Assembly (NCBI RefSeq): GCF_001886855.1
Contig: NZ_CP013197.1
Location: 620,001 to 684,000 of the forward strand
Direction: 5' to 3'
DNA length: 64,000 nt
DNA from: Spiroplasma citri
Lineage (GTDB): Bacteria; Bacillota_I; Bacilli_A; Mycoplasmatales; Mycoplasmataceae
How positions within the stretch are numbered: the first letter of the stretch is position 1; each line of letters starts with the position of its first letter. Shown in pieces: positions 19,635-43,609 of this stretch. The notes beneath the pieces were generated by a model that saw only the letters and a program-made list of their open reading frames with translations, searched no databases and was not told where the DNA came from. The position numbers and the translations under genes are program-made.

Positions 19635-19691
19635 TTTAATTGCTTTTTGGTAAAAAAGAAGTTATGATATAAGTATAAAAATAAATTATAT

Positions 19692-19757
19692 ATCTGTATA
19701 TACTAGTAATATGGTCTAGTGTTTCTACGTCTTACCATTGGAAGAAGACGCTATAGG
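19692..19757 (+). promoter_or_regulatory. Purine-family riboswitch
   Basis: P2 stem ACTAG (19702-19706) pairs with CTAGT (19716-19720) around loop TAATATGGT, matching the conserved L2 AATATGG. J2/3 reads GTTTCTA, the purine-riboswitch core. P3 is CGTCTT/AAGACG and J3/1 is CTAT. It sits upstream of a nucleoside-binding lipoprotein, the expected kind of target. The J3/1 segment lacks the A usual before CTAT and the Watson-Crick specificity base appears to be C, which suggests a guanine-type ligand. P1 pairing is weak by eye. Confidence 0.75.
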
Positions 19758-19796
19758 TTAATGCTTTTGCTTTTTAAACATTAACCATTCATTTTA
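19756..19796 (+). promoter_or_regulatory. Expression-platform hairpin
   Basis: A perfect 8-bp stem GGTTAATG/CATTAACC starts at the 3' edge of the riboswitch, whose last bases it shares. A related sequence GGTTAATC follows at 19809. It could be the alternative structure controlled by the aptamer. Confidence 0.45.
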
Positions 19797-28103: not shown

Positions 28104-29415
28104 ATGGAGTTAAAACAAAATTTGTTAGGAAATTATAAAGAAAATAAAACAATCGAGACACAAAATGAAGTTAAAAATTTATTAATTAATAGAGATAATG
28201 AGATATTTGAATTATATCAACAAGGACAAATATTACAAGGATATAAGGTAGTATCAAAATTACCAAAAACAATTAAAACAGAATATGGAAATATTCCTAT
28301 AAAAAGACGAAGATATGTTAAATATGATGAAAAAAATAAAAAATATATAAATCGTTATCCTTTAGATGAAGAATTAGGATTAAAAAAATATGAAAGAATT
28401 GAAAAAAATTTAAAAGATAAATATATTTCTTTTATGGGTGATGGAAAGCGATATAAAGATATTATGCACACAACAGAAAATGCTAATATCAGTGAAAAAA
28501 TAATATCTAATATTTTTAAAAAAGCTGATTTAGAAAAAGTTGACTATATTAGCAACAAAAATAACAATAAAATTAAAATTCCCAATAATGTTTTATATAT
28601 TCAAATTGATGGTGCTTTTGTTCCTATGCGAGAAAATAAAAAAAGAATTGAAAAGAAAATATTTTTTTTCAACTATGCATATTGGTATTGATGGCGAAAA
28701 ATCAACTGAAACAAGAAAAGTAATTAAAAAGAAAAAAGGTGTTTTTCAAATAATGGATAAAAATACTAATAAAAATGAAAAATCTAGTTTTAATAATTTT
28801 ATTGACAAAATTTTTAAACTAATGGATACTTATGATATTAATTAAAATAGTATAATATTAGTATTAAGTGATGGCGAAAAACAAATTAAAAAAATTTACA
28901 AAGCTATAAAAACAAAATATAAAAATAATACTGTATCATATAGTTTGGATAAATTTCATTTAGTAAAAAGATTTAAAGGCTTATTTTCATATAGAAATAG
29001 AAACAAAATTCATAGATTAAAATATAAATTAGCAAAAATATATTTTTTTACTGGAAATTATGAAGCATTATTAGATTTTTTAATTTGTCATTTACCCTAT
29101 GTTATTGACAGCAAAAAGAAATTTTTATTAGAAACTATTGAATTAATTAAAAATAATAAAGATGGGATTGAAAACCAAGCATTAGAATATAATATTGGCT
29201 GTCATGTTGAAGGTGATGTATCGCATTATATTAAGGCTGTCAAGGGGCGAGGTGCAAAAATATATTGTAAAGAAACATTTAATAATATGTTAATTGCTTC
29301 AATGTTAAGACTTAATAGCAGAATTAATGAAGTTAAAATTAATAAAAATAAAGAAAAAATTGAATTTAATATTTTTAAATTAAATCAATCTCAAAAGCAA
29401 TTTTTATCTTTATAA
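28104..29415 (+). pseudogene. UPF0236/ISLre2-type transposase, right copy
   Basis: Complete in extent: MELKQNLLGNYKENKTIE, KRRRYVKYDEKNKKYINRYP, YIQIDGAFVPMRENKK, then a frameshift in the T run at ~28665 to MHIGIDGEKSTETRK, an in-frame TAA at 28843 (TYDIN-stop where the left copy has NEN), then VLSDGEKQIKK, NIGCHVEGDVSHYIKAVKGR and the end KQFLSL. RBS AGGGAA. UPF0236 proteins are transposase-like and common in mollicute elements. Inactive as written. Confidence 0.8.
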
Positions 29416-30051: not shown

Positions 30052-31068
30052 ATGAAAAAATTGTTCAGTGTCTTTGCTGCAATTAGCATCTTAGCTGCTC
30101 CGGTAACATACATAATTGGATGTAATCCAATCCCTGATTTACCTTATATTTCAGATAATCAAATTTCAGAAAATACTAAAAAAACTATTAATAAGCTTGT
30201 TTTGGGTGAAAATAGTAAGGTTGCTACATTATTCGATTATAATCTTGATACATGAGTAAAACCAACCTTTTTTCCAAAAGAAAATATTATGAATATTAAT
30301 ATTGAGAACAAAGATATTTTAAAACAAATGCAACGAACTATGTCGCAATTACAAAAAATTCATAGCGAAGAAAATTTATCAAAAGATAGTTTAGAATATA
30401 TGAAAAAAAGTTTACTATCATCAAAAGATTTAAGAAGTCAGCCTTGACCAACCGTTGTTGAGAAATATAATTGATATTTAGATCAAAAAAGTAAAAATAA
30501 AACAGTAACGGATTTAGAAACTTTAGTATCTTATTATGATAATCCAATTTCAGAAAAATCAGATTTATATAACAAAAAACGTTGATTATATGTTGACCAA
30601 CTTCGCAGCGAAAATGTAAAAGATTGATTTAAAGATGCGCATTCATGAACCTTAAATCCTAATAGTAAGAATTATGATGAGGAGACAAAATTTGATCAAG
30701 GAATTTTTTATCATGTTTTACTTAATGCTTACTTACAAAAAGTGCAAACAAATTATGATGTTCAATTAAAAAATATTTGAAAGGAATATAGCACTGAAGA
30801 TGATAAGGAAAATATTCAAAATATTATTAGTCCTGATATTGCAGGAATTACTTTAACTTTTACGGTCTGAGATCCTGAAAAATGAACTAAACATTTTGTT
30901 GATGCACATCCTGTTGTTAATAGTAATGAGAATCTTTTTGAAAATTTACCAATTTTACCAATTGAACAAAAAATTGGAGTTAAATTAGTTGTTGCAAATA
31001 TTTATGGAACAGTTTCTAGTTATTTAATTGGAAGTTTTGTAATTTCTAATTTATTAGGAATTGAATAA
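30052..31068 (+). CDS. Lipoprotein of unknown function
   Basis: 338 aa, frame intact with TGA-Trp. RBS AAAGGAGA. Signal peptide MKKLFSVFAAISILAAPVTY and lipobox IIGCNP (Cys near residue 24). The mature part is polar and Trp-rich with no motif I recognise, ending in a hydrophobic stretch KLVVANIYGTVSSYLIGSFVISNLLG. It directly precedes the decayed miaA unit, where the duplicated segment begins one base after its stop. Confidence 0.75.
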
Positions 31069-31118
31069 ACTAGATTTGTTATTTTTGCTAAAAAGAAATA
31101 AAATGTGATAAAATGTAA

Positions 31119-31279
31119 TCGTCCGCAAGGACATTTTTCTATGTTTATTATAACGTTAAGGTGTGTTTGGGGTTATTAACCGCTATATAAATCAGTAACT
31201 CTATACCCAAGCACTTAAAGCGGTTCAGGGTTATCTTAAAAATAAATGAAAGGCTAACAGTTGAATGTTAGTTTTTTAA
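31119..31279 (+). ncRNA. Structured RNA upstream of miaA, copy 1
   Basis: Promoter-like GATAAAAT at 31107-31114, then a GNRA-capped hairpin GTCC-GCAA-GGAC (31121-31132), a hairpin around TGTTTATTATAACG, and two long helices: GTGTTTGGG (31163-31171) with CCCAAGCAC (31206-31214), and AACCGCT (31178-31184) with AGCGGTT (31219-31225). Their order is interleaved, so they form a pseudoknot or exclude each other. It ends with a terminator hairpin CTAACA/TGTTAG and six T. miaA has its own promoter-like TTGAAA...TAAAAT after the terminator. It may be a small RNA gene or an attenuated leader. I do not recognise it as tmRNA, SRP or a known riboswitch. Confidence 0.55.
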
Positions 31280-31333
31280 TTTGAAAAAAATAAATTATCC
31301 GATAAAATTTATAAAGAGATGAGTGAGGTTTTG

Positions 31334-32271
31334 ATGGTAGCGAAAAAAAGTTATTTTAATTGTTGTACCAACAGGAAGTGGTAAAACTGCTTTATCAATT
31401 AAAATCGCTCAGCGTTTTAATGGCGAATGTATTAATGCTGATGCAACCTAAATTTTTAATGGGTTAAATCTTGCAACAAATAAAGTAACACCATCTGAAC
31501 AAGCTGGAATTCCATACCATTTATTATCAACAATTGATTTAAATGATAATTATTCCATTAAGATGTACCAACAGCAGGGACGAAAAATATTAGCCCAATT
31601 ATGAAGTAAAAATAAAATTCCAATTGTTGTTGTTGGTAGTGGGTTATATATTAATGCACTATTAAAGAATTACCAATTTTCTGATCAGGGTTGTGATTTA
31701 TTAAAAACAAAGGAATATGAACATGTCTCAAATTATGCTTTATGAGAAAAATTAGCAACAAATTGATTCACAAGAGAGTACTAAAATTCATCCTAATAAC
31801 CGAAAACGAGTTTGGCGGGCATTAGAATATTATTTACAAACAGGAATATTAAAATCAAGTAATGATCATCACCGAAATGAATGATATATTGAACCATATA
31901 TTATTGGGTTATTACCAGATAAAGCAGAACTGCATCAATATTTATTTGATCGGGTGTTACGGTTAACAGAGCAAGGTTTATTTGCTGAAGTTGAAGCAGC
32001 ATATAAATATTGTAATTATGATTTAACAAAGCAAAGTATGAAAATTATTGGTTGTTCAGAAATTATTCGTTATTTAAAAGGTGAGCTTTCATATGAAGCA
32101 ACATTAGCAGCAATGGTTCAAGCTAATAAAGTTTATGCTAAAAAACAAATCACATGGTTTAAACACCAATTAACAAATGTGCATTGATATTCATTTTCCT
32201 ATTCACAGTTTGATAATCTTTGCCAGAAAATTATTGTTGAATTAAAAAATAGTAACTATTTAAAATTATAA
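31334..32271 (+). pseudogene. miaA: miaA, decayed copy
   Basis: Same gene as 42540-43475. It has an extra A in an A run at 31342-31349 (shifting the frame right after the start), TAA for CAA at 31449, and an insertion near 31757 (ACAAATTGATTC for ACAATTGATC). The C-terminal part is nearly unchanged ([20 protein letters not shown]). It cannot encode the enzyme. Confidence 0.95.
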
Positions 32272-32289
32272 TTTATTTTTAAAAACATT

Positions 32290-32329
32290 CCTTAAAAAAC
32301 AATATTAATTGTTTTTTTCTTTTTTAAGG
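32290..32329 (+). terminator. Terminator after miaA copy 1
   Basis: CCTTAAAAAA pairs with TTTTTTAAGG around AACAATATTAATTGTT sequence; same as after copy 2. Confidence 0.75.
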
Positions 32330-32487
32330 ATTAAATAACTCCTAAAATATTTAAATTTTGTTATAATGTAATGTGTCCAAATATAAAAACTATTTAAGAA
32401 TTAAAGAAAAAAATTTAAAGTAAGTTTCTTTACTTATCAAAATAAATTTATATAACTTAATTAATAAATTTTTTAAATATAAGGAGG

Positions 32488-35087: not shown

Positions 35088-35174
35088 ATGAAAAAATGAC
35101 TTAGCATAATAATAGTAACAATCGGATTAACCGCAACAAGCACAACAACATTAATCAGTTGTAAAAAAACTTAA
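35088..35174 (+). pseudogene. Lipoprotein truncated by viral insertion
   Basis: RBS AAAAAGGAGC and a complete lipoprotein signal peptide (MKKWLSIIIVTIGLTATSTT, lipobox LISCKK), then TAA after 28 residues. The stop falls at the point where plectrovirus DNA on the opposite strand begins, so the body was separated from its start by integration. The 3' remainder is not found within the window. Confidence 0.65.
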
Positions 35175-36195
35175 AATTAAAACTTAAATCATCATTATTA
35201 ATATTATTTAACTCTAAACTACCAGAAATAATTAAATTTGCTTCATCAACAGTTAAAATCATCCGATAAATTGCTTTTTTAATATTTTTAACATCCAATT
35301 CATCAACCATCTCAAAATCAAAAATTATCCGCTTTGCACCAACCTTATTCGGATTTTCATAATCCGCACTACCACCTTGCTGAACTCTAATATTTTCTTG
35401 CAAAACAGAATATAAAGATAAATCAATAAATTCTTTTACGCGAGTTTGTTGATAACTATTTCAGTCAGTAATTTCACCAGTGTTTTTGTCAATAGTTGGT
35501 AATTGTGGTTCACCAACGCCATCTCAACGATATAGTGAATTAATATAAACATATCAACGATTATTAATTCTATGTCCTCTATGTTCTCCAACTTTTCAAA
35601 TTAGCTCATTTGAAAAATTAAATTTTATAATAGAAAAATTATCACTTTGCATTTGTTTAGCAATTAAAATATATCATTTATTATTTTTTTCATTATTTTC
35701 TTTTACAAAATTATCTCTATCAATTAATTTTCAATTATCTACTTTTAACTTAACTCTTGGATAATGATTTTCTTTATAGCGGTCAACATTTTCCACAATT
35801 TCTTTCGATACATTAAACATCTTATATTTTACAGCAAAGGCATAAATAAAATCAGTTAAATCATCCAAAAAATCCTCCCTTTTAACATCATAAAATTTTT
35901 CAACCATATACCTATTTTTTAAACTATGTCATTGTTGATAATAACCCAAAAATACTTCATCTGGTTTATCATAAACAACTCCGGTGGAATAACTATCTTG
36001 TAAAAAATCTAAATACCATTTATCATTAAACGATAATTTTTTTGATGTTTTTAAAGTTGGATTAATAAAATAATTTGTTTCCGACCAATTTTCAAAAAAA
36101 CTACTGCGTAAAAACATAGTATTAATAAAATCAATTTCATTAATACCTTTATTATTACTATATATTCTCTTGTTTAAGCGTATAATTCTCCTCAT
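35101..36195 (-). CDS. Plectrovirus ORF1-type protein
   Basis: 365-codon frame starting MRRIIRLNKRIYSNNKGINE. The viral part ends ELNNINNDDLSFNFKFF; the last ~22 residues (NWLMLLCLLRLIRLLLLLC) are translated from the antisense of the flanking lipoprotein signal sequence, so the viral gene was cut at the junction. In SpV1-like phages the large protein in this position is a virion/adsorption-type protein; exact role not established. It heads a minus-strand cluster of small membrane genes characteristic of these filamentous phages. Confidence 0.6.
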
Positions 36196-36203
36196 TTAAG
36201 GGT

Positions 36204-36290
36204 CTAAACGCCGTTAAAGTAATAAATGGAATAACCAAACCCAAAAAAAGTTAAAATAAATATGGCAAATAAAGATAACGATTTTTTCAT
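36204..36290 (-). CDS. Tiny plectrovirus membrane peptide
   Basis: 28 aa, MKKSLSLFAIFILTFFGFGY plus SIYYFNGV; RBS AGGAGTT. A single hydrophobic segment. Found in the expected position between the ORF1-type gene and a 2-TM gene. Function unknown. Confidence 0.5.
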   Translation of the reverse strand: MKKSLSLFAIFILTFFGFGYSIYYFNGV

Positions 36291-36301
36291 AAACTCAACT
36301 C

Positions 36302-36538
36302 CTAACTATAAAATGTTTTTGAAACAATAAACCCAATAATATATAAACTTGATATTGTTAACATTAACGGATGACTAAATAAAATTGCCATTCTACCAAA
36401 TAATCAAATCAACCAATTATCAGAATTATATAAATCCATAATAATATTTTTTGCCGATGTAAATTGATTAATAATAACAGTAATAAAACCAGTTCCAAAT
36501 ATCGCAATCGCCGCCACCAATAAAACTAATTTAATCAT
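36302..36538 (-). CDS. Small plectrovirus membrane protein
   Basis: 78 aa with two hydrophobic segments ([20 protein letters not shown] and [20 protein letters not shown]). Its ATG overlaps the stop of the upstream gene by one base (TAATG), implying translational coupling. Probably a minor coat or assembly protein; inferred from context. Confidence 0.55.
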
Positions 36539-36915
36539 TACTTTTTATCTCCTTTAAATTTAGTAATTCTAATATTTTTTGTTTGATATCTAATACTTTG
36601 TCGTTTAAGTTCTTTTTTAACTTGCTGCTTATTACTATTCTGATAAACATTTTTACCAACATTAATACCTTTTCGTACAGTTGACGAATATACTTGCGAA
36701 ACACCATTATTAACTGTCGAACCTAAATTATTATATTGTATTGCTGTCCCGTGAATTGCATAAATAGATAATTTAATAACCATAAAAAAGATTAAAAAAT
36801 AAGCAATCGATGTATTTGCCATAGGTAATTTTGTATTTCAAATTACATCAAAAACAAAACTAAAAATCTTATCTCAATTACTATTATTATTTTCAACTAA
36901 TAAATTAATCATCAT
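36538..36915 (-). CDS. Plectrovirus membrane protein
   Basis: 125 aa, starting [23 protein letters not shown] at 36915 has AAAGGA 7 bases upstream. A membrane segment [20 protein letters not shown] is followed by a strongly basic tail ([23 protein letters not shown]) that could touch DNA. It overlaps the upstream ATPase gene by 11 bases. Function unknown. Confidence 0.6.
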
Positions 36916-37917
36916 TACCATTTCCTTTCTCTTTTTTAGGTTTTAAATTTTTTTTCAAAATATCAATATCAAACAATTCTAATCGTTCTTTAACACTTAA
37001 CTTTGTAATTTCTGACCAATAATATTCTTTTTTATTAACAATTTCGTCATTCTTTAAATCACGCACAAACTTTAACCATTGACTATCATACTTATTAGCG
37101 AATTCAAGGGGAATAATTATTTTAAAAAACCAAATTCCTAACCCAACATCTGACTTATGTTTTGCTCTTTTACCTTCTGCTGTTCGTTCTACTGATTTTG
37201 TTTTTCAAATTTAATAATTCGTTATATCTTGGAAAATCTCAATTCGCATAATAAAGAAACGATTAAAAAAATTAAATCCTTTTTTATCAACGGGTTTTTT
37301 CAATGAAATTGGAATAATAACCCCACTTGCTAACTGGCGAATATTATTTCAAATTATACCCTCACGCTGAGCAGTAAACAATGCACGATTACCAAAATGT
37401 CTCGCTAAAACAATTCACGGTATTTTACCACTATGAACTTTTTTCTCATCATGAGGACTAGTTCCATCAATATACAAATAACTTTCATCAAATAAAATAA
37501 CACTATCATCTGGGGGACCGGTTTTGTTCTATCGGTAAAATCTAAATTTTTAAATGTTAAAACTTTAACTTTATCATCTTCTAACGGATAATTACTATAA
37601 ATTTCATCTGTCAATAATTTCATAGTTTGCGACAAATAAGTTAAAAGTAATGTTTTACCAGTTCCTAACTTACCAATAATTACCGATAACGGATTATCTC
37701 AAACAAAATTTACTAACCGAAAAGCATTTAACTGATAAAAAATATTTTTTCACAATCATCACACAAAATATACACATTGCAAAGCAAATAATATTCAAAA
37801 TACTAAACCAACACAATGCAAAGAAATTATTCAAAGTAATAAATCAATTAAACTAAACAAAAACATTGAACCAATAATATAACAATAGTTTTTAAAGAAA
37901 AATATAAACTTTTTCAT
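36905..37917 (-). pseudogene. Zot/pI-like phage assembly ATPase, broken
   Basis: N-terminal membrane segments (MKKFIFFFKNYCYIIGSMFL and following), then P-loop IIGKLGTGKTLLLTYLSQ near residue 80 and Walker B VILFDESYLYIDG: the architecture of Zot/gpI-type ATPases that export filamentous phage. A frameshift in the C run at ~37510 and an in-frame TAA near 37216 (QDITNY-stop-IWKTKSVERT) break it. The C-terminus ends [12 protein letters not shown]. Confidence 0.75.
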
Positions 37918-38036
37918 TATTTAAAATACCCAACTATTTTAAAAACCATTCACAAGAAAAACCAAGTTAAAAACAAAATCACAATTCAAACACCAACCAT
38001 CAAAGTTAAATATTCATTTTACGTTAAATTTCACAT
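37917..38036 (-). pseudogene. Small plectrovirus membrane peptide
   Basis: MWNLT, TAA, then NEYLTLMVGVWIVILFLTWF and a hydrophobic end. One in-frame TAA after residue 5; a second ATG at 38000 could still give a 27-aa peptide. Its stop overlaps the ATPase start. Confidence 0.4.
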
Positions 38037-38045
38037 TGTAATACT

Positions 38046-38120
38046 TTAAACATTCGTTTTATCTATAAACAAAGATATATGAATAAAAAACTCTTTTAAT
38101 TTAATTCAATCATTTTGCAT
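38046..38120 (-). CDS. Very short viral ORF
   Basis: 24 aa, MQNDWIKLKEFFIHISLFID and KTNV. Supported only by position in the compact viral gene array. Confidence 0.3.
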
Positions 38121-38122
38121 TT

Positions 38123-38272
38123 TTAAAAACTCCACATTTTTTGAATAAGTTTAAAAAACATTCCAAAAAACAAAACAATAAATAACACAAAGGATATAAC
38201 ATATAAAAAATCAGGGGCATTTGAACCAATAATATAACTAACAAATTAAACTAAATAATCATATAAACTCAT
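38123..38272 (-). pseudogene. Small plectrovirus membrane protein with stop
   Basis: MSLYDYLV, TAA, FVSYIIGSNAPDFLYVISFV and a second hydrophobic part to 38123. The stop at codon 9 removes the membrane part. Its start overlaps the end of the next gene. Confidence 0.45.
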
Positions 38273-38722
38273 TTAATTTAAGTCTTTCAAATCATTAATT
38301 AATTCTTGTTCTTTTTCAGCACTTCAATTTGTTAAATTATTATTGTTATTATTTGTTTTTACTTTTTTAGTTTCACTTGAAAATAATGCTTCTTTCATTT
38401 TAGTAAAATAATTTTGTTTATATTGATTATATAAATTGATTAATTCTGTTCCAGTTAAACTCTTTCAAATATTACGCTTTAAATTTTCATCATATTTTAC
38501 AATAGGGTAAGAATTATCATAAATCAAACCGATTGCTACTTGTTCCGAATGTTTTTCACTCGGATAAATAAACTTATTACTCAATCAAAAACCAATATGA
38601 CGATTATGATTAGGTAAATTAATAAAACTTGCTTTATCTGTTGTAAAAGGGATAAATTCCTTACTAATAAAATAATTTTCTATATTCTGATTTTTCTTAA
38701 CAAAATTACTCAATTTTATCAT
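38273..38722 (-). CDS. Plectrovirus conserved soluble protein
   Basis: 149 aa, intact. Contains [20 protein letters not shown] and [20 protein letters not shown], then a low-complexity Asn run and an acidic end [10 protein letters not shown] second, diverged copy lies at 47613-48026. ATG 38722 lies inside the upstream gene in another frame, 17 bases before its stop. Soluble and conserved in these phages, so perhaps ssDNA-binding or replication-related; this is a guess. Confidence 0.6.
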
Positions 38723-39056
38723 CTACACTTCTTAGCATTTTACCTTCTCCTAATTTTCCAACTATATTTTCTAACGGTAATAATTGTTTCTTAAATACTG
38801 TAACTTTAAATTCCTTAACTTCTGATATATGCTCCATAATTACAAATGGTAAAAGTACAACAAAAAGCATTAAACAGAAAAAATACCCTAAAATACCAAT
38901 AATATCTCCTACATTTAAAGACCAAATTATAAAAACACTACAAAAACCAAAAAAAATTAATATATCAAAATAAATAGAACCAAAAACAAAGTTTGTAATA
39001 ATAAAATCTCTCTTTAATTCTTTATATTCCTTAGTTGTTTTAAATTTCATATCCAT
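38706..39056 (-). CDS. Plectrovirus membrane protein
   Basis: 116 aa with hydrophobic segments at about residues 20-45 and 55-80 ([20 protein letters not shown]) and a polar C-terminus. RBS AGGAGAC. First gene of this viral block downstream of the noncoding stretch. Confidence 0.55.
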
Positions 39057-39168
39057 AATATAGTCTCCTAACTAAATATTTGTTTAATAAACAATGTTAT
39101 AAATAATTCTAATATATTGTTTATTTAATGTTTAATAAACATTGTTAAATATAAAAATAATAAAAATT

Positions 39169-39903
39169 GGCACACTGAAAAATACTATTTAATTTTTAAC
39201 AATAGTTATTAAAATATAAAATCATAAGTTTATAATTAAGTTGATATTATTATGGTTTTCTGTCTGTATAAATTATTTTAAATAGAAAGAAGAAATAAAA
39301 TATCGAAGAAATAATAAATTCATTTTTCTATTTAATAAATTCATTTTTTACAAATGTGATACCATCTATTTTTTGATTATCATGAATGGTATCACCAATT
39401 AAAACAATTATTTCACTAATAATAATTTTAATAATTAATAATTTTAATAATAACTTTTAAATTTATTATTTGAATTTTTAATAAATTAATAAATTTATAA
39501 ATATTTTTATACAGAGAGAAAACCATAATAATACCTTAAATATAATTAAGTTGATATTTTTACACTACATACTGCCTACAAGTTTTTAAAAAATAAGTGT
39601 ATTTATAAAAAATATTTATAGAAATTTATTTCCCAAATCTATTACTAGTATGACCCTTAATAGAAATATTCTTATTTTTATTAAATCCTACTAAAAAAAT
39701 ATTTTTCATAACAGACTCAATATTATTAATAATAAACAATATAGATTTATCATTTATATGTATAATAGGGTTTTTCATCTTGTTAACATTATCAATAATA
39801 ACCAAAATAATTAAATTTATTTAAAAATAAATTTGTAGACAGTGTATAGTGCAAAAATAAACAACAAAATTATTTATTCAATTCACATAAAAACTAGTGT
39901 GCC
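39169..39903. mobile_element. 735-bp element with GGCACACT ends
   Basis: Begins GGCACACTGAAAAATAC and ends AGTGTGCC. No intact ORF. Inside is an inverted repeat of about 27 bp, GTCTGTATAAA-type at 39250-39276 and its complement at 39508-39538. An 85-bp derivative with identical ends is at 48287-48371. The ends resemble the end GACACACTAAAAAGTAC of the UPF0236-type elements at 21455 and 29469, so it may be a non-autonomous relative. The flanking 39057-39168 carries TTTAATAAACATTGTTA-type repeats and no gene. Confidence 0.55.
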
Positions 39904-40100
39904 TTAGCTAAGATATATAATCGATTATAATAAATATTTAAGAAAACCATTATCTCAGGTAAAATATTTGTTATACCTTCTTTAATTTTTCATAATGCAC
40001 TAGATAAACCAGTTCAAATACCAGTTATACCCTCAGTCATAGTTTTAGGTGTAGGTGTTGTTAAAAAATTAAACGCTGTTGTTAAATACATACATAACAT
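39894..40100 (-). pseudogene. Plectrovirus coat-type protein, 3' end replaced
   Basis: 68 aa. [20 protein letters not shown] and MTEGITGIWTGLSSALWKIK match the amphipathic start expected of the SpV1-type major coat protein. After PEIMVFL the hydrophobic membrane segment expected of a coat protein is missing, and the frame reads NIYYNRLYILAKAH into the end of the 39169-39903 element. So the gene was truncated there. Assignment as major coat rests on position and pattern. Confidence 0.5.
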
Positions 40101-40249
40101 TATTTATTACTCTCCTTTCTTTCAATTTCTTTTTTATCTTTTTTCTTTCCTCTAATTTGACGAATTTTTTGGTAAATTAATAAACCAAAATAAAGAAAAA
40201 TTGCTAATACAATAACAACACTAAATATTGTCGTTAATCAAGTTCGCAT
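40100..40249 (-). CDS. Small plectrovirus membrane protein
   Basis: 49 aa, [20 protein letters not shown] then a very basic tail ([18 protein letters not shown]). One membrane pass. Its TAA overlaps the ATG of the coat-type gene by one base. A start 13 bases further up is also possible. Confidence 0.55.
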
Positions 40250-40293
40250 ATTACATCTCATCTCTAAAAACTAAAAAATTGAAATTTGCAAAC

Positions 40294-40375
40294 TCGCTCC
40301 GCTCGTTGTCGCTCCGCTCCATTAAAAACACTATTGAATAAATTATCCGCTAATAAATTACGCGGATAATTTATT
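40294..40375. repeat. GC-rich direct repeat and perfect stem-loop in viral noncoding region
   Basis: TCGCTCCGCTC occurs twice (40294-40304, 40309-40319). Then a perfect 14-bp inverted repeat AATAAATTATCCGC / GCGGATAATTTATT (40337-40350, 40362-40375) with an 11-base loop. It could be a terminator or a replication signal of the single-stranded DNA phage. Confidence 0.6.
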
Positions 40376-40378
40376 CTT

Positions 40379-40489
40379 TTACTTTGTAATTTCAATATCT
40401 TTTGCAATCTTATTAACAGTATTAATAACAATATCTTTCCCATACTTTTTCACTAGGGACCGCAAAATAAAATATTGCTTTGTTTGCAT
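40379..40489 (-). CDS. Small soluble plectrovirus protein
   Basis: 36 aa, MQTKQYFILRSLVKKYGKDI then VINTVNKIAKDIEITK. RBS GAGGAGTT gives a convincing start. Basic, helical; possibly DNA-binding. First gene of the viral cluster. Confidence 0.55.
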   Translation of the reverse strand: MQTKQYFILRSLVKKYGKDIVINTVNKIAKDIEITK

Positions 40490-40614
40490 AATTTTAACTC
40501 CTCAATTAAAAATATTAAAAAAATTTACTTTCCAAAACTGTAAAAACCAAAAATACAAAATGTATGTGGTTTCTACATTTTTTATTTTAGCCTATCCTAA
40601 TTAAAGACCCAAAA

Positions 40615-40666: not shown

Positions 40667-42078
40667 ATGAATATTATTAATAAACTTGGTAGTATCAACC
40701 CATATCAATTTTTTTCTGACATTAATGAGCAATTAATTAAAGATGGACTTATTGAAATTAAAAATCATCTATTAAAACGTGATGAGGAAATTTTTCTTAG
40801 TGATGAAACTAGAAAATTAGGTTTTAAGCCAAAAGGTTTTAAAAAAAAGATGTTTTATTACGTTACTTGGAGATATTCAGATTAAAATTAGGCGTTATAA
40901 ATTTTGAGATGCAAATGCATATAATATAAAACAAAAAATTATGGAAAATGACGATTTAAATGTCTTTTACTAGAGGATTTAAAATTTGAAAAATATCAAA
41001 AAATTACACATGATTTAAAAGAATTAATATTAACTAATGTAGCTGATGGGAAAAGAATTAAAGATATTAATGATATGATTCCAGTTAAAAGTCTTTCATA
41101 TTCTTCAATAGCTAGATTAATTAATAAATTGAATCTTAATTTAGAAAATGCAAGTAATAATTTTAGCAATAAAACATCATCAAAATATATTTATATTGTT
41201 CTAGATGATACTTTTTTATCTTTGAAAGAAAAAAAATAAGAAGAAGAAATTTCGAATTCGAACAGCATTTTTTCATCAAGGTCATATATCAGAAGATGAA
41301 AGAGTCGGAAAATCAATTTTATTGAATAAAAAAGCTTATTGTAAATTATTAAGAACTGCTACAAATATTAATACATTAGAATATAGTGAAGAACTTTTCA
41401 AAGAAATGTCAAAATATTATAATATTACACCTGATACTCAATTTATTGTATGTGGAGATGGTGCTGATTGGATAAAAAATACTTCTCATTTTTTTAAATG
41501 CAAAATATGTTTTAAATAAGTTTCATGCAATTAGAAAAATTGGAACAGTATTTAATTTAAAAAGTAAATATGACAAATTGCAGTTTAAGATTTGTAAAGG
41601 TCTTTTTAAAAATGGAGAATATACAAAATTAGTCACTCATTTAGAATACTTTAAAAATAAGTCTAATTTAATTAATAAACAAAATAATTTATTAAATGTA
41701 ATTAAATACTTGAAAAAACGCAAAGATGGTGTCATTGCGTATAAATATGATTGATGTTTAAGTGCATGTGCGGAAGCATTAATATCGCATACAATAAAAG
41801 CACAATTAGGCCATGGGAATAAGATATATTCGTATGATTCATTTAGGAACATTTTAGCTTTACGTGTAGCAAAAATTAATGGATTAAACTTAGTTAAAGA
41901 AATGTTTAATGAAGAGCTTGAAAATAAAGATATTTCATTGAAAAATATAAAAATGGCTAAGTGAAATAATAATGCTAATAATTCATTATATGAACCTAAA
42001 AAGGGAGGGATTCCTGTAATGAATTATCGTACTACTGGTATTAGTAAAGTATTAAAAGAAATAACAGCAGTAAGATAG
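40667..42078 (+). pseudogene. UPF0236/ISLre2-type transposase, diverged, frameshifted
   Basis: Starts MNIINKLGSINPYQFFSDIN. Segments in several frames: GDIQIKIRRYKFWDANAYNI, HDLKELILTNVADGKRIKDI, YIVLDDTFLSLKEKK, FIVCGDGADWIKNTSHFF, VLNKFHAIRKIGTVFNL, and AYKYDWCLSACAEALISHTI. The order D..T, GDGA-WI, LNKFH and a late Glu fits ISLre2-type enzymes. Breaks near 40858, 40970, 41235 and 41513. A different subfamily from the 21.5/28.1-kb copies. The stretch 42079-42274 has nothing recognisable. Confidence 0.7.
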
Positions 42079-42324
42079 TAGTTAAAAAATCAGTAATTTT
42101 ATTAAAAAAAGAATATTTTTAAAATATTCTCATTTTAGTATTCCCTTTTTTAAAGAAATATGTTTTAATAAATGTGTAAATAAGATACTTTTAAATTAAG
42201 CGGTTTAATGATTAACTATTTTTAAAAATAGTCTAAAATTATTGTTGAACTGGTACCTAAAATAATATTCGAACACTAGATTTGTTATTTTTGCTAAAAA
42301 GAAATAAAATGTGATAAAATGTAA

Positions 42325-42485
42325 TTGTCCGCAAGGACAGTTTTCTACGTTTATTATAACGTTAAGGTGTGTTTGGGGTTATTAACCGCTATATAAATCA
42401 GTAACTCTACACCCAAGCACTTAAAGCGGTTCAGGGTTATCTTAAAAATAAATGAAAGGCTAACAGTTGAATGTTAGTTTTTTAA
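42325..42485 (+). ncRNA. Structured RNA upstream of miaA, copy 2
   Basis: Same architecture as copy 1: TGTCC-GCAA-GGACA hairpin, ACGTT/AACGT hairpin, GTGTTTGGG (42369-42377) with CCCAAGCAC (42412-42420), AACCGCT with AGCGGTT, then CTAACA/TGTTAG terminator. Of the few differences from copy 1, several keep or improve pairing (GTCC/GGAC untouched; copy 2 CGTT pairs fully with AACG while copy 1 has TGTT). A promoter-like GATAAAAT precedes it and TTGAAA...TAAAAT follows it for miaA. Confidence 0.55.
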
Positions 42486-42539
42486 TTTGAAAAAAATAAA
42501 TTATCCGATAAAATTTATAAAGAGATGAGTGAGGTTTTG

Positions 42540-43475
42540 ATGGTGGCGAAAAAAGTTATTTTAATTGTTGGACCAACAGGAAGTGGTAAAACTGCTTTAT
42601 CAATTAAAATCGCTCAGCGTTTTAATGGCGAATGTATTAATGCTGATGCAACCCAAATTTTTAATGGGTTAAATCTTGCAACAAATAAAGTAACACCATC
42701 TGAACAAGTTGGAATTCCACACCATTTATTATCAACAATTGATTTAAATGATAATTATTCCATTAAGATGTACCAACAGCAGGGACGAAAAATATTAGCC
42801 CAATTATGAAATAAAAATAAAATTCCAATTGTTGTTGGTGGTAGTGGGTTATATATTAATGCACTATTAAAGAATTACCAATTTTCTGATCAGGGTCGTG
42901 ATTTATTAAAAACAAAAGAATATGAACATGTTTCAAATTATGCTTTATGAGAAAAATTAGCAACAATTGATCCACAAGAGAGTACTAAAATTCATCCTAA
43001 TAACCGAAAACGAGTTTGGCGGGCATTAGAATATTATTTACAAACAGGAATATTAAAATCAAGTAATGATCATCACCGAAATGAATGATATATTGAACCA
43101 TATATTATTGGGTTATTACCAGATAAAGCAGAACTGCATCAATATTTATTTGATCGGGTGTTACGGTTAACAGAGCAAGGTTTATTTGCTGAAATTGAAG
43201 CAGCATATAAATATTGTAATTATGATTTAACAAAGCAAAGTATGAAAATTATTGGTTGTTCAGAAATTATTCGTTATTTAAAAGGTGAGCTTTCATATGA
43301 AGCAACATTAGCAGCAATGGTTCAAGCTAATAAATTTTATGCTAAAAAACAAATCACATGGTTTAAACACCAATTAACAAATGTGCATTGATATTCATTT
43401 TCCTATTCACAGTTTGATAATCTTTGCCAGAAAATTATTGTTGAATTAAAAAATAGTAACTATTTAAAATTATAA
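42540..43475 (+). CDS. miaA: tRNA dimethylallyltransferase
   Basis: 311-aa enzyme that adds a dimethylallyl group to A37 of tRNAs reading U-starting codons. P-loop [20 protein letters not shown] near residues 6-25, [12 protein letters not shown], the [16 protein letters not shown] segment and a C-terminal zone [20 protein letters not shown] 42540 is chosen for GTGAGG 5 bases upstream; ATG 42525 in frame would add MSEVL. It needs DMAPP, which the MEP pathway enzyme IspG in this window helps supply. Intact, unlike its duplicate at 31334. Confidence 0.95.
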
Positions 43476-43493
43476 TTTATTTTTAAAAACATT

Positions 43494-43533
43494 CCTTAAA
43501 AAACAATATTAATTGTTTTTTTCTTTTTTAAGG
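43494..43533 (+). terminator. Terminator of miaA
   Basis: CCTTAAAAAA / TTTTTTAAGG stem with an inner ACAATATTAATTGT, and a T run. Confidence 0.8.
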
Positions 43534-43609
43534 ATTAGATAACTCCTAAAATATTGGTATCGTACACGATGCCTTAATTTAATATTATTACTAATAAATT
43601 GCATTATTT

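Follow-up and report, generated by a model that had tools for sequence, protein, structure and literature searches.

A strongly conserved, knotted RNA ahead of miaA in Spiroplasma probably switches the gene on or off

A strongly conserved, knotted RNA that is not described in the open-licence literature searched lies before the tRNA modification gene miaA in Spiroplasma, and probably switches that gene on or off. We analysed it in a 64,000-nucleotide (nt) stretch of Spiroplasma citri DNA (contig NZ_CP013197.1, positions 620,001 to 684,000; hereafter the window, whose own numbering is used for all features, on the plus strand unless stated otherwise), where it occurs twice, with core sequences at 31118..31237 (copy 1) and 42324..42443 (copy 2). 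Judged from sequence comparison, the RNA is on balance likely to be the 5′ leader of miaA, acting in cis as a transcription attenuator or as an orphan-riboswitch leader in which a pseudoknot of two helices, A and B, competes with a terminator stem, helix C.

Results

The element is compact and its strands are interlocked. Hairpin 1 (GUCC-GCAA-GGAC, 31119..31134 in copy 1, where its outer two pairs are broken) is followed by hairpin 2 (31141..31156) and then by three helices. Helix A, of 9 base pairs (bp), joins 31163..31171 to 31206..31214 (GTGTTTGGG/CCCAAGCAC as DNA, GUGUUUGGG/CCCAAGCAC as RNA); helix B, of 7 bp, joins 31178..31184 to 31219..31225 (AACCGCT/AGCGGTT, or AACCGCU/AGCGGUU in the RNA); and helix C, of 9 bp, joins 31194..31202 to 31227..31235 (AGUAACUCU/AGGGUUAUC). 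Read 5′ to 3′, the strands are A, B, C, A′, B′, C′, and every helix therefore crosses both others. A and B have the arrangement of an H-type pseudoknot, with a 4-nt loop separating A′ from B′, and C is a third helix that crosses both. The nine bases that join B to C (J2, 31185..31193), with a WAUAAAU core, are the best-conserved unpaired segment across genera. Just 5′ of hairpin 1 stands a TAAAAT box (31109..31114), with a TATAAT-like box in this place across the distinct sequences; its sequence marks it as the putative −10 box of the RNA's own promoter, with the RNA predicted to begin at hairpin 1. An earlier, sequence-only reading of the window had described the −10 box, the two hairpins, interleaved helices of 9 and 7 bp, the 4-nt loop and a terminator, all of which lie in place in both copies. 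Its count of two interleaved helices, which correspond to A and B, was incomplete, however, as it had overlooked C. The interleaved arrangement is not a product of chance, since the A–B pseudoknot appeared in 0/3000 dinucleotide shuffles of the 73-nt core, the nested fold alone gives z = −3.1, and the element recurs throughout the genus (14 genomes) and in five others.

The element was found by BLAST in 14/14 genomes of the window's genus and by covariance models in five further genera, the first model being built from the genus sequences and the second extending the set of distant homologues. A model of this kind had been suggested with the sequence-only reading, and those built from relatives did find distant homologues in other genera. 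The order-level sample comprised 298 genomes, including 60 of the Spiroplasma family, in which miaA was scored by Pfam search. Within the family 40 of the 60 genomes carry the element, with one copy per genome except for the duplicate in the window genome, and it is present in 39/39 genomes that have miaA and in 1/21 that lack it. By coordinates it adjoins the gene in 38 of the 39 miaA-bearing genomes, the exception being a rearranged genome (G007), and apart from two genomes the 40 carriers all have it immediately ahead of miaA, a linkage that holds across genera despite differing upstream genes. Outside the family the element was not found among 395 genomes of the class, and it is absent from 15 miaA leaders from other families of the order (f3, f8 and f10). 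A slightly decayed element in a metagenome-assembled genome of another family (G224; L091) lies on a small, Spiroplasma-like contig without miaA (C22), while that genome's own miaA lies elsewhere; it is probably contamination and was not counted. On an RpoB tree whose support is uneven, the simplest history would have the element present in the family ancestor and lost twice jointly with miaA, once in g10 and once in the clade of g2, g3, g4, g5 and g9.

Between two members of the window's genus (G000 and G006) the RNA differs at 4 of ~113 positions, as against differences in miaA of 24% at codon positions 1+2 and 41% at the third. Within the genus no double compensatory change was seen, only one-sided changes that keep the pair and one A.A mismatch, in helix B of G007; the genus alone cannot prove the fold, and distant genera were therefore needed. 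When the sequences were aligned by MAFFT with no structural information, pairing stood at 97.1% over hairpin 1, A and C, and 11 pairs were changed on both sides, five of them in A and five in C, which is itself 99.3% paired. None of 500 shuffles (0/500) reached as high a double-change signal, and the signal was lost when the partners were slid by one base. MAFFT shifts B′ by one base between genera, so that helix B was left out of this structure-blind test, which serves as the unbiased check on a hand-made structural alignment whose helix positions were chosen partly by pairing. When the substitutions of each column of the hand-segmented alignment (34 distinct sequences) were placed at random along the tree, this null put A, C and hairpin 2 at p = 0.0005 each, hairpin 1 at 0.0015 and B at 0.075. 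A per-pair test similar to R-scape returned few pairs at E<0.05, three of them in hairpin 2, because substitutions are few, and helix-level tests were used instead. The changes themselves are readily followed: in other genera the stem of hairpin 1 turns from GUCC/GGAC to GUGC/GCAC or GCC/GGC, and that of hairpin 2 is wholly re-coded and still 100% paired. Helix B is near-invariant across genera (CCGCU/AGCGG), with compensations from C-G to U-A in G019 and from A-U to C-G in G018. All three predicted helices are conserved, whether by covariation or by near-invariance.

In all distinct sequences from other genera a U-tract (6–8 of 8 bases) lies directly 3′ of helix C, and the RNA would therefore end there in an intrinsic terminator, with C as the stem and A′ and B′ in the loop. 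Outside the window's genus the start of miaA follows C′ by 22 to ~100 nt, and in the short-spacer cases the U-tract almost touches the ribosome-binding site. As terminators that end only 22–40 nt before the start codon leave no room for a promoter, miaA would in those cases be reached by readthrough. The sequence-only reading had offered a pseudoknot or a switch; in these genera the role of C as terminator stem favours a switch over a static pseudoknot, though one made of three helices and not two. In L056, L057, L060, L068 and others, the U-tract of the terminator could also base-pair, over up to 18 bp (e.g. TTTTATTTTATTTTTTAA/TTAAAAAATAAAATAAAA; a G-C variant occurs in L060), with A-rich sequence immediately 5′ of the ribosome-binding site of miaA; this is a possible second regulatory hairpin, D.

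The window's genus is built differently, in that no U-tract follows helix C in 12/12 distinct sequences. A separate intrinsic terminator peculiar to this genus, T2, with a hairpin and a T-run (31249..31277 in copy 1; the same sequence at 42455..42483 in copy 2), lies ~13 nt after C, farther in G003 and G009, and is kept in other species of the genus with different stem sequences. Between T2 and miaA a promoter-like site, TTGAAA-16-TAAAAT (31281..31308), can be recognised from its sequence, and it is kept as TTGCAA/TAAAAT ahead of the miaA of G007, where the gene has been split from the RNA. Within this genus a free RNA of ~160 nt is the probable product, which may or may not act on miaA.

That the RNA occurs twice before miaA in the window, as the sequence-only reading had it, is correct for both copies, but these stem merely from a recent duplication of 1.28 kb, and one of them is decaying. 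The repeat units, each with promoter, RNA, terminator and miaA, are direct repeats at 31069..32350 and 42275-43555, 98-99% identical and ~11.2 kb apart. In copy 1 miaA is a pseudogene (31334..32271) with two single-base insertions and an in-frame stop, and in copy 2 it is an intact open reading frame (ORF; 42525..43475, starting at 42525 or 42540) with a PF01715 match of 7e-65 in this genome. With the nearest genome (G012) as outgroup, ~14 changes within the repeat are private to copy 1, including the two miaA insertions and four substitutions in the RNA (31120, 31134, 31142 and 31204). In copy 2 about six substitutions have accumulated, all in miaA and its flank and none in the RNA, whose core is identical to the G012 orthologue; the covariance-model scores are 145.6 bits for copy 1 and 156.7 bits for copy 2. 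Of the four RNA changes, two disrupt pairs of hairpin 1, another leaves a U-G where C-G stood, and the fourth alters a loop base otherwise invariant in the genus; given the broken pairs and the changed invariant base, copy 1 is decaying with its pseudogene. The four differences had been read earlier as tending to respect pairing, a claim that does not survive: all arose in copy 1, and the comparison of the two copies gives no support for pairing. Copy 1 follows a lipoprotein-like ORF (30052-31068) without a gap, starting at the first base after its stop codon, and as the position of copy 1 matches that in G012, copy 2 appears to be the one that moved, even though it is the one left intact. Between the repeats, at 35101-40600, lies a series of minus-strand ORFs that look like plectrovirus genes, one of which (37405-37917) has a P-loop, GKLGTGKT. 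Broken ORFs resembling transposases occur at 28104-29415 and 40667-42078.

In some genomes the RNA and miaA have come apart. In G019 (L090, contig C29, minus strand) miaA is cleanly deleted, so that an apparent ribosome-binding site and its ATG now precede a tRNA gene, and the element is intact; in G024 (L052) a tRNA likewise lies downstream of miaA. The intact element of G019 implies that either miaA was lost recently or the RNA does more, and a loss that was not recent would argue for an independent role. In G007 (L096, L097) a rearrangement with its breakpoint inside T2, an overlap of ~19 bp at both ends and transposase-like ORFs nearby has left the RNA and its terminator before a thymidylate-synthase-like gene, with miaA elsewhere. 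The G007 element has since gained 6 private changes against 0 in G011 (outgroup G002), at equal miaA divergence.

Discussion

How such a leader might control miaA can be outlined from its architecture. As the polymerase passes, helix A would pair first and serve as a scaffold, whereupon B would complete the pseudoknot, B and C being alternatives. These two would compete because B′ abuts C′ (0–1 nt) and, were they stacked, the nine bases of J2 would need to reach across both helices, which is a geometric argument. An effector that held B and J2 would keep C from zipping, and miaA would be transcribed; without such a hold on B, C would form and transcription would stop. Calculated for isolated helices, the energies in most species outside the genus are ~−5 to −11 kcal/mol for C and −2 to −3 kcal/mol for B (L053, L055 and L090 are exceptions), and in the window's genus −7.0 kcal/mol for B as against ~−5 kcal/mol for C. 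These energies fit termination as the default outside the genus and B as the default within it.

As to the effector, the element is present in single copy and is linked to miaA exclusively, and MiaA itself or its substrates, dimethylallyl diphosphate (DMAPP) and unmodified tRNA, are therefore favoured over a general metabolite. A special case of the attenuator names the effector as MiaA, which when free of tRNA would bind the leader at B and the AUAAAU loop and shift the balance between B and C. Single-copy occurrence, only with miaA, would be unusual for a metabolite sensor and speaks for such autogenous control. MiaA recognises A36-A37-A38 loops, and the W-AUAAAU core of J2, the best-conserved loop, offers an A-A-A run like that of its anticodon-loop target. 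However, J2 was rejected as an anticodon mimic, there being by eye no stem to close a seven-base anticodon-like hairpin, and the run reads AAG instead of AAA in G067 and G019; we consider autogenous control distinctly improbable. A bolder proposal, which we think unlikely, is a new class of regulatory RNA that would sense isoprenoid supply (DMAPP or isopentenyl diphosphate), a prenylated nucleoside or the N6-isopentenyladenosine-37 (i6A37) status of tRNA through the interlocked A/B/C fold, with the terminator loop carrying the pseudoknot strands, and that would have ceased to be a leader and become a free RNA in the S. citri/poulsonii lineage.

Several observations weigh against an attenuator. 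Helices A and C could both be present at once in a classical H-type pseudoknot, mutual exclusion being strictly argued only for B versus C. That two neighbouring sequences disappeared jointly argues only weakly for a function. G019 has lost miaA and still keeps the element whole, with a compensatory change in B, and G007 is also the faster lineage in RpoB (0.024 vs 0.010), which weakens its relative-rate result. The window's genus, moreover, keeps C though C is no terminator there, and with T2 and a promoter-like site between the RNA and miaA it better suits a free RNA. An alternative is a discrete non-coding RNA gene, acting in trans or as a scaffold, that lies upstream of miaA by chance, its three helices together forming an ABCABC pseudotrefoil for binding protein or RNA, and miaA being expressed by leaky readthrough or from its own promoter. 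It would account for an RNA that has its own promoter and its own terminator everywhere, for the upkeep of T2 and for the slow change of the RNA core relative to miaA in the genus, which is unusually low for a mere attenuator. Against it stand the strict linkage to miaA across genera with varied upstream genes, the lack of promoter space ahead of the closest miaA starts and, more weakly, the decay or acceleration of the RNA where miaA is broken or has moved. The last point counts for the attenuator, in that the RNA beside the miaA pseudogene decays and the copy beside the intact gene does not. The G019 and G007 cases pull in different ways, and we leave a free RNA as a real possibility, albeit a somewhat unlikely one. 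That the region is an ordinary, constitutive and unregulated leader and terminator, conserved only for the needs of a promoter and a terminator, is very improbable: attenuator-like leaders can be leaky and unregulated, but termination needs neither conserved loops nor an invariant B nor a covarying A.

If the RNA does control miaA, a gene for tRNA hypermodification would be under RNA-based attenuation in strongly reduced genomes that have few regulators. The lineages also offer a natural set for asking how a leader becomes a free RNA, with an intact leader, a leader without miaA, a split leader, a duplicate beside a pseudogene and a leader without a U-tract, and the predicted competition between helices is directly testable in vitro.

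In its working the element seems to resemble the fluoride and ZTP riboswitches most. A conserved, structured domain does stand in the leader of a modification gene, in the 38 of 39 miaA-bearing family genomes noted above, and a candidate expression platform is seen in other genera, where C with its U-tract crosses A and B, the U-tract being absent in the window's genus. With no matching Rfam model, we do not file it as a riboswitch. The fluoride (crcB) riboswitch is described (PMC11077080) as a small pseudoknotted domain just before an intrinsic terminator, the two competing during transcription; in the miaA element, too, a pseudoknot immediately precedes an intrinsic terminator, within the leader of the gene it may control. 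Whereas pseudoknot and terminator share a strand in the fluoride riboswitch (PMC11077080), here each of the three helices has strands of its own, with both 3′ strands of the pseudoknot lying in the terminator loop, and there is no sequence or Rfam match between the two. The ZTP (pfl) riboswitch, described as an ON switch with a transcriptional read-out (PMC7337938), also contains a pseudoknot; its sequence and helix arrangement are different, and its Rfam model gives no match at gathering score here. In the order of its helices the element agrees with the ABCABC 'pseudotrefoil' pseudoknots (subclass 1C), a recognised and uncommon pattern represented by 51 sequences in the survey PMC3390330. 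The three helices here, one of which is a terminator, may however be alternatives instead of parts of a single fold. Control through the miaA 5′ untranslated region has a parallel in Escherichia coli, where it is post-transcriptional and exerted by CsrA/CsrB on an mRNA from a multi-promoter operon; it depends there on protein and small RNA, and the passages of PMC12249760 on it mention no pseudoknot or terminator leader.

No Rfam 15 family, including the signal recognition particle (SRP) RNA, scores above its gathering threshold at the element, the best sub-threshold scores being 12–16 bits, at chance level. The view of the sequence-only reading that this is an uncharacterised structured RNA linked to miaA, distinct from SRP RNA and the known riboswitches, holds good, and the RNA's own promoter is supported. 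Nor is the element transfer-messenger RNA (tmRNA) or type B RNase P RNA, which this genome carries elsewhere, at C1:1526251-1526674 and C1:1225476-1225843, respectively, again as had been supposed. The three findings that the sequence-only reading had named as telling against it did not materialise: covariation exists, the element precedes miaA in other Spiroplasma genera and there is no hit to an Rfam family. A T-box leader was also considered and rejected, as neither the window nor its relatives contain an Rfam T-box match and the GGGUGG-like letters that some genera show do not occur in the window's genus. For a leader peptide, inspection of the aligned sequences by eye, limited to ATG starts, found no ATG at a common position. 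The sole match in the window at Rfam gathering level is a purine riboswitch aptamer (RF00167, 49.5 bits) at 19674-19773, on the plus strand.
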